From positions 62,001-126,000 of the forward strand of contig JAHBTJ010000014.1 of the NCBI GenBank assembly GCA_019638595.1: a DNA stretch of 64,000 nucleotides, written 5' to 3'. This stretch comes from Chitinophagaceae bacterium (GTDB taxonomy: Bacteria; Bacteroidota; Bacteroidia; Chitinophagales; Chitinophagaceae). The notes under the pieces were generated by a model that was not told the origin of the DNA, did no database searches, and saw nothing but the letters and a program-made list of their open reading frames with translations. This document shows, one piece after another, positions 16,633 to 17,100 of the stretch (positions are counted from its first letter, which is position 1; every line of letters begins with the position of its first letter). The position numbers and the translations under genes are program-made.

Positions 16633-16707
16633 GGGAGCATAGCTCAGTTGGTTCAGAGCATCTGCCTTACAAGCAGAGGGTCCGCGGTTCGAGCCCGTGT
16701 GCTCCCA
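16633..16707 (+). tRNA. tRNA-Val (anticodon TAC)
   Basis: A complete 75-nt cloverleaf. The acceptor stem pairs GGGAGCA with TGCTCCC plus discriminator A. The D-arm is GCTC...GAGC. The anticodon stem pairs TCTGC with GCAGA around loop CTTACAA, giving anticodon TAC (reads GTA, Val). The T-arm has TTCGAGC. CCA is not encoded (ACAG follows). A strong promoter lies upstream and a hairpin terminator 10 bp downstream. Its 3' part is duplicated 342 bp downstream. Confidence 0.96.
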
Positions 16708-16758
16708 CAGATGAACAGGTTTTGATTATTGCTATCAAAACCTTTTTTTATTATGTGG
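16676..16758 (+). repeat. 83-bp direct repeat, copy 1 (tRNA 3' part + terminator + ATGTGG)
   Basis: This stretch is identical, base for base as I read it, to 17018-17100. It holds the tRNA variable loop, T-arm and acceptor 3' strand, the 45-bp downstream spacer with the terminator hairpin, and the first two codons (ATG TGG) of the GIY-YIG ORF. The repeat boundary therefore falls inside two genes. Confidence 0.95.
16717..16749 (+). terminator. Rho-independent terminator of tRNA-Val
   Basis: A perfect 10-bp stem (AGGTTTTGAT with ATCAAAACCT) encloses a 7-nt loop and is followed by seven T. It ends only 4 bp before the ATG of the GIY-YIG ORF, so that ORF can be transcribed only by read-through or from an unseen start. 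Confidence 0.9.
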
Positions 16759-17013
16759 ACTTTTTACATTCTTTACTCTGCCGGTCTTGACAAATACTAC
16801 ATTGGCTGCACTGGCGATGAGTTGCAGCAACGGCTTCGCAGACATAATACTAAGCACAAAGGATTTACCGGGACGGTTAATGATTGGATAGTTGTGTATA
16901 CCGAAGTTTTTACTGATAAAACTGCGGCTCTTGAACGGGAACGGCAGGTGAAGAGCTGGAAAAGCAGGGATAGGTTAAGAAAGCTTATTGATGGTTCAGA
17001 GCATCCCGCCTAA
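16753..17013 (+). CDS. GIY-YIG endonuclease domain protein (tRNA-linked)
   Basis: An 86-residue single-domain protein of the GIY-YIG (URI-like) superfamily. The GIY-equivalent is FYILYS (residues 3-8) and YIG lies in YYIGCT (17-22). A basic helix with Arg (LQQRLRRHN) and the conserved acidic helix [14 protein letters not shown] (about 63-76) with the catalytic Glu follow. ATG at 16753 sits 4 bp after the tRNA terminator. The last codons, GSEHPA and stop, are read from a partial tRNA copy (from 16992). Cutting activity is inferred from the family. It has no adjacent specificity domain or integrase. It is probably a selfish or homing-type unit; a host role is not excluded. Confidence 0.88.
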
Positions 17014-17049
17014 GCGGGAGGGTCCGCGGTTCGAGCCCGTGTGCTCCCA
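16992..17049 (+). pseudogene. 3' tRNA fragment (tRNA-Val-like, 5' part missing)
   Basis: TGGTTCAGAGCATC matches the D-arm end and start of the anticodon stem of tRNA-Val. From 17018 the match to its 3' part is exact through the discriminator base. The anticodon arm differs: stem TCCCG/CGGGA around a 6-nt loop CCTAAG, against TCTGC/GCAGA with a 7-nt loop in the intact gene. The 5' acceptor strand and D-stem 5' side are absent, replaced by the GIY-YIG coding sequence, so it cannot fold as a tRNA. The GIY-YIG stop codon (TAA, 17011-17013) lies in its anticodon loop. Confidence 0.9.
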
Positions 17050-17100
17050 CAGATGAACAGGTTTTGATTATTGCTATCAAAACCTTTTTTTATTATGTGG
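17018..17100 (+). repeat. 83-bp direct repeat, copy 2
   Basis: Identical to 16676-16758, offset by 342 bp. It contains the 3' part of the tRNA fragment, a second copy of the terminator hairpin (17059-17091) and the ATGTGG of the GIY-YIG start, but no second GIY-YIG ORF follows. Instead the sequence runs into a HicB-like remnant. Confidence 0.95.
17059..17091 (+). terminator. Duplicated terminator hairpin
   Basis: Same 10-bp stem, 7-nt loop and T-run as at 16717-16749. Here it could end transcripts that read through the GIY-YIG ORF. Confidence 0.88.

Follow-up and report, generated by a model that had tools for sequence, protein, structure and literature searches.

Phage SegB is the closest known counterpart of the loci described here: a GIY-YIG homing endonuclease, encoded on its own among the tRNA genes of phages T4 and T6 (PMC13096335, PMC2988022), that cuts within tRNA genes and amplifies the tRNA-nuclease block (PMC13096335). 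The locus described here lies in a 64,000-nucleotide stretch of a Chitinophagaceae genome (hereafter the window, meaning the whole stretch of DNA that was analysed), and it and its relatives resemble SegB in having a GIY-YIG enzyme adjoining tRNA genes with no intron, and in tRNA linkage and tandem units that recall SegB's tandem tRNA-nuclease amplification, seen here as arrays and not as an amplification event. SegB resides in phage genomes and favours no particular isotypes (PMC13096335), whereas here the genes are chromosomal and their relatedness follows isotype; moreover, a displaced half-tRNA with a hairpin is found here, and the available portions of PMC13096335 mention none for SegB. 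No PHROGs family matches the window protein at E 0.01, and SegB is compared by its published description.

Mitochondrial mobile ORFs (Allomyces atp6 and the mORFs of Glomeromycota) provide a second parallel, in which the insert supplies a new gene end and the old end is left downstream. Those elements have protein-coding organelle targets, whereas the targets here are bacterial tRNA genes, with 5' and 3' forms, arrays, and hairpins. Free-standing homing endonucleases next to tRNA genes are already known in phages. The open-access literature, covered mostly as titles and abstracts, yielded no description of chromosomal tRNA-linked GIY-YIG elements, and nothing was found there on YhbQ.

At the window locus, where all features are on the + strand, a functional tRNA-Val(TAC) gene (16633..16708), the only full tRNA-Val that ARAGORN and Rfam RF00005 find in the window genome, is followed by an intrinsic terminator (16714..16749; inverted repeat I1, with 13-nt arms at 16714-16726 and 16734-16746 and a T run) in the gap between tRNA and ORF. 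Three bases past the T run is the start codon of an 86-aa GIY-YIG nuclease ORF (16753..17013; ATG at 16753, stop at 17013), which matches Pfam GIY-YIG PF01541 at E 6e-16 (58.9 bits, cut-off 22.6). The ORF runs into a displaced, partial tRNA-Val: a D-arm remnant (16992..17003) doubles as its 3' coding end and lies within an exact 14-bp repeat (16649-16662 = 16992-17005), and the GSEHPA-stop codons are formed by this D-arm sequence together with the 16-bp palindrome TCCCGCCTAAGCGGGA (17004-17019), the stop falling within the palindrome loop. This palindrome (TCCCGC-CTAA-GCGGGA, 17004..17019) replaces the anticodon arm of the displaced copy, and the T-arm and acceptor 3' strand (17020..17050) and a second copy of the terminator (17056..17091; inverted repeat I3) follow.

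We noted previously, from the sequence alone, the tRNA-Val(TAC) gene, its terminator, and a GIY-YIG ORF ending in tRNA-derived codons, and ARAGORN, Rfam, translation, and PF01541 confirm all of these; the hairpin that replaces the anticodon arm was absent from that earlier note. An exact repeat of the tRNA 3' part, the terminator, and the first ORF codons was also recorded there at the correct spacing of 342 bp, and its length, given as 83 bp, is in fact 84 bp (16676..16759 and 17018..17101). The 84-bp repeat occurs twice genome-wide, both times at this tRNA-Val locus, which rules out a high-copy dispersed repeat, and a chance repeat is ruled out by the 84 exact bases and by group-wide recurrence. 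A group I intron or other known RNA is likewise ruled out, as the tRNA is uninterrupted and an Rfam scan of the window at gathering thresholds returns only tRNA. The GIY-YIG ORF is the only one of at least 60 aa inside the unit, which agrees with the earlier proposal that no integrase is present in it.

Searches with the window ORF gave a match at E 1e-3 in 247 of 394 genomes of the window's family, a number that may include unrelated GIY-YIG genes. We compared 115 loci collected by similarity (6 matches in the window genome, 29 given by the search tool, 79 hand-picked regions, and the sister array L121), of which L038 and L039 repeat L015 and L017, so that 113 are distinct. A same-strand tRNA lies less than 400 bp upstream in 99 of the 115 (97 of the 113 distinct loci), at a median distance of 46 bp and at 30–60 bp in 81 of the 99. 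The window genome has 48 tRNAs in 7.06 Mb, and by arithmetic for that genome only an upstream tRNA within 400 bp is expected at ~0.1–0.3% of positions; the linkage is thus not due to chance. At 14 of the other 16 loci a tRNA fragment lies beside the ORF as judged by eye, several of them being clipped by contig ends, and at L005 and L036 none was found by eye. GIY-YIG genes without tRNA pieces, whose occurrence at unlinked loci had been named as grounds for refutation, are therefore rare (2/115, partly by eye), and the proposed minimal unit linked to tRNA genes is borne out by its recurrence at the examined loci.

Downstream of the ORF, 87 of the 99 loci have a displaced partial tRNA, and ten amino-acid isotypes are used (Val, Ala, Lys, Arg, Met, Phe, Pro, Ser, Asp, and Asn); at L070 and L071 the displaced tRNA-Lys copy is misread as Leu or Stop. 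More than one unit, complete or partial, is present at 21 of the 113 distinct loci, and in four of these the second is short and incomplete (the raw count of 25 falls to 21 once two repeats, the split L069 gene, and two matches lying 3.8 kb from each other at L140 are set aside). Array spacing beyond the window is mostly 300–390 bp. At L070, L010, and L043 consecutive tRNA calls of the same isotype stand beside the element (five tRNA-Lys at L070), resembling SegB tRNA amplification. Contigs break inside elements at the C5 and C52 ends of the window genome (G000) and at the C147 and C281 ends of G395, and arrays are consequently probably undercounted in draft genomes.

The group extends beyond the window's family. 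A phylum-wide profile search gave a match in 194 of 296 genomes, and 50 loci were retrieved, of which five from the window's family and three repeats were dropped; the remaining 42 comprise the 25 best matches outside the family and 17 selected by hand to represent arrays and a range of families. Of these best 25, 24 have a tRNA on the same strand no more than 400 bp away, as do 12 of the 17 hand-picked loci, and 17 of the 42 have at least two matches more than 200 bp apart, so the tandem arrays thought possible at the outset are found both in the window's family and in the rest of the phylum. One genome assembled as a single contig has five units at 315-bp spacing at tRNA-Asp, showing that arrays are not merely an assembly artefact. 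Named bacteria in culture that carry such units include Algoriphagus, Belliella, Aquiflexum, and Cognataquiflexum. In an Acidobacteria MAG there is a single case of a tRNA-Ala followed by a GIY-YIG frame with an internal stop and a partial tRNA-Ala with a hairpin. The window protein as query has no match at E 1e-5 in phage and plasmid records, a point against its spread as a mobile element, and no NCBIfam family was found for it.

We interpret these loci, with a probability of about 0.6, as minimal mobile elements in tRNA genes, composed of a tRNA 3' half, a terminator, a single-domain GIY-YIG gene, and a 5' tRNA part, and presumably spread by nuclease-driven homing. The sequence-based support consists of the architecture, the recurrence at ten isotypes, the isotype-linked nucleases, the unlike terminators, the arrays, one empty/occupied pair, and purifying selection in a small number of close pairs. 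The element would enter the tRNA gene at or near the anticodon arm, its incoming 3' half replacing the resident one such that the tRNA stays functional and the old 3' half and terminator move downstream; a mirror form would carry the nuclease, a leader, and a 5' half, and sit upstream. The nuclease presumably acts on an unoccupied cognate tRNA gene, cutting it close to the anticodon arm, and repair of the break from an occupied copy via the two tRNA flanks would constitute homing, with breaks or unequal exchange between units giving rise to arrays. Our best guess is that the anticodon-arm hairpin prevents both re-cutting and tRNA activity of the displaced copy.

The terminators are informative as to how the second tRNA part arose. 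Among the 53 of 99 loci that could be scored (the remainder have no clear copy end), the terminator before the ORF and that following the displaced copy are less than 0.7 identical in 35, at least 0.9 identical in 3, and between these values in 15; the 35 include four loci with the tRNA more than 100 bp upstream (L009, L077, L088, and L133) and the misread L071, leaving 30 simple cases. Pure duplication of a block would give matching terminators, and differences would be expected if the element brings the tRNA 3' half, the terminator, and the nuclease. Most simply, an incoming element would have pushed the original 3' half and terminator downstream. Terminator drift could also yield unlike terminators, though the adjoining tRNA parts stay alike.

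These comparisons bear on the alternative that the loci are vertically inherited tandem duplications, in which a tRNA-terminator-nuclease block was duplicated and later decayed with no homing between cells. Arrays with near-identical units are compatible with this, as are the repeated tRNA genes near some loci (three tRNA-Val at L010, and the tRNA-Lys calls at L070), the weakly resolved nuclease tree, and such amplifications by SegB in phage, as described in the accessible part of its account (PMC13096335). However, unlike terminators at 35 of 53 loci despite alike tRNA parts suggest a foreign insert, and occupancy is patchy, and we regard duplication without homing as unlikely. By eye, the ORF sits at tRNA-Val(TAC) in three of the 12 genomes compared within the genus (G000, G394, and G395), and two more (G279 and G310) have partial tRNA-Val copies without a GIY-YIG ORF.

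The comparison of empty and occupied tRNA-Val loci that the earlier note called for yielded one pair: the empty tRNA-Val locus of G336 aligns on both flanks with the occupied locus of G395, which is split between two contigs. Occupied and empty alleles of one site are what a homing endonuclease would have. The tRNA-Val genes of G123 and G239, which are empty by eye, are 100% identical to the window's over nt 1–76. As the functional tRNA of an occupied locus is the same as that of empty ones, the occupied gene lacks the sequence immunity typical of homing and should remain cuttable, which is the chief weakness of the homing interpretation; weak nuclease expression behind the terminator is a possible explanation for the persistence of a cuttable tRNA.

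Elements in the opposite arrangement point to the same place in the tRNA. In this mirror form a displaced leader and 5' half precede the nuclease, which is followed by a leader and full tRNA, and examples are found at tRNA-Ser (L305 and L320) and tRNA-Met (L026); the displaced 5' half of L305 ends within the anticodon loop. The existence of both the common and mirror forms indicates that the anticodon region is the insertion point. Partial tRNA copies also lie upstream of a functional tRNA at L151 (in G279), L144 (in G395), L006, L004, L206, and L227, with no GIY-YIG gene between copy and tRNA. They comprise a leader and approximately nt 1–56, several are broken at the T loop, and they have a hairpin in the anticodon or D arm; perhaps they are decayed elements of the mirror form.

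Related nucleases tend to sit at tRNA genes of the same isotype, far more so than chance would give, though there are exceptions. A tree of 109 of the 115 proteins with their tRNA-coded ends removed (omitting L038, L039, L121, and the short L006, L069, and L134) requires 20 changes of isotype label, for which the minimum possible is 11, and none of 200 shuffles was as low (mean 69.5). The tree is weak, with 7 of 106 inner branches starred and 59 open, and vertical descent of orthologous tRNA loci could supply part of the isotype signal. tRNA-Val alone needs nine changes, the window protein forms a pair with that of an Arg-TCT element, and the window-genome copies (at Val, Met, Arg, and Ser genes) fall in different places rather than in one cluster (the Ala copy is not in the tree). 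Purifying selection is seen in a few close pairs: the six with dN under 0.2, of which three have members in common, show dN/dS ratios of 0.05–0.18. The median over all 29 pairs with dS of 0.05–1.2, most with dS near 1, is 0.52. Seven loci, as well as pairs with stops, were excluded from this sample beforehand.

Residues Y5, Y16, G18, R27, and E63 never vary across the 26 chosen members that were aligned (26/26), and the GIY-YIG domain with its Tyr, Arg, and Glu places the protein in the GIY-YIG nuclease superfamily. Its best sequence matches of solved structure are the UPF0213 proteins BH0048 (E 2e-10) and EF2693 (E 2e-9), which are similarly single-domain GIY-YIG proteins and are named hypothetical in their PDB entries; we know of no link between UPF0213 proteins and tRNA genes. 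The predicted structure of the 86-aa protein (mean pLDDT 80, pTM 0.68) has no Foldseek match at E 1e-3 or better, and the nearest folds are a UPF0213 protein (1zg2, the top match, E 1.7e-3), SLX1, and the I-TevI catalytic domain, the last two being weak matches that share the family Tyr, Arg, and Glu. SLX1 is partner-dependent and acts on branched DNA according to PDB titles, whereas no partner is seen here, and the separate DNA-binding domain ascribed to I-TevI in the available text of PMC2988022 has no visible counterpart in the 86-aa protein, which weighs against homing.

The hairpin of the window's displaced tRNA is a general feature of the group. A new perfect hairpin of at least 6 pairs is present in 76 of 84 displaced copies (the 87 less L038, L039, and L121) versus 9 of 84 shuffled sequences, and the same rule detects a hairpin in 32 of the 84 native tRNAs; the 76 include L068 and L081, in which the hairpin detected is not an arm substitute. 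A motif places the hairpin in the anticodon arm in 56 of the 84, the rest being in the T or D arm or not placeable. Among 58 hairpins of the TCCCG type there are 48 distinct sequences and the inner pairs covary. The motif TCCCG-N4-14-CGGGA occurs 115 times in the window genome versus 37 for a reversed-letter control, and one of 20 such genomic palindromes checked is a partial tRNA-Gly copy; such palindromes are thus not special to the elements, and the 76/84 is far above that density. By eye, at least three of the 20 (L260, L261, and L262, in the window genome) are nested in the loop of a larger hairpin away from tRNA genes.

A quite improbable alternative takes the palindrome itself as the substrate, such that a structure-specific nuclease cuts the displaced copy, not the native tRNA gene, and drives amplification. 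The branched-DNA nuclease SLX1 is among the solved relatives by sequence and fold, and the prevalence of the hairpins and the matching inner pairs of the many distinct TCCCG-type versions would be accommodated. However, isotype-following relatedness is left unexplained and similar palindromes occur elsewhere in the window genome; furthermore, the displaced copies after the first ORF of arrays also have the hairpin, whereas copying from the upstream tRNA predicts native arms.

A further set of observations concerns integrases. Four of five inspected loci lacking an upstream tRNA (L023, L033, L052, and L072, with L012 the exception) have an ORF of ~400–425 aa that is integrase-like by eye and adjoins a tRNA 3' fragment starting at the native anticodon arm; both of the two scanned are Phage_integrase. 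Several points make it very unlikely that the elements are remnants of integrase islands attaching at tRNA anticodon loops with the GIY-YIG gene as left-over cargo. At these four loci the element lies beyond the island, which looks to have displaced it; the alignment of 55 of the 87 displaced copies begins at tRNA nt 20 or before, to the left of an anticodon crossover; and neither the arrays nor the isotype-related nucleases are accounted for. It seems that these islands integrated at the anticodon and displaced a GIY-YIG element.

Returning to homing elements in tRNA genes, we give even odds to the broader proposal that integrase-free elements of ~340 bp home into the tRNA anticodon region as isotype-following lineages, with mirror forms and a hairpin mark, and are common in Bacteroidota and perhaps beyond. 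If so, they would be among the smallest self-contained bacterial mobile elements, aimed at essential genes and avoiding killing of the host by carrying half of the target gene. They would be a chromosomal counterpart of phage SegB, would explain why Bacteroidota genomes repeatedly contain partial tRNA copies and GIY-YIG proteins with odd ends, and would offer compact nucleases with preferred targets that can be read from the genome.

The window locus itself fits a derivative of a longer array. In the sister genome G394, whose upstream MlaD-domain protein is 94% identical to the window's, the same site (L121) contains tRNA-Val followed by five GIY-YIG matches, of which two are full-length, two partial and noisy, and the fifth cut short; the noisy units could be artefacts of assembly, which leaves their count uncertain. 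Beyond the array are a hicA gene (HicA_toxin PF07927, E 4e-11, over the cut-off) and a hicB-like gene (HicB_lk_antitox, E 0.004, below the cut-off). By-eye comparison with L121 identifies the ATGTGGA at 17095..17101 in the window as the first seven bases of a second GIY-YIG unit, followed directly by a 5'-truncated hicB-like gene (17102..17398, + strand; HTH_3, E 1.4e-4, just under the cut-off), and the sister hicB-like gene has the same ATGTGGA at the window's junction point. This is consistent with a microhomology deletion from the array into the hicB-like gene. The earlier suggestion that the unit regenerates its own borders does not hold in the window, where the second repeat copy is the beginning of this deletion-cut second unit. 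hicA is gone from the window, and the sister genome retains both hicA and the full hicB-like gene.
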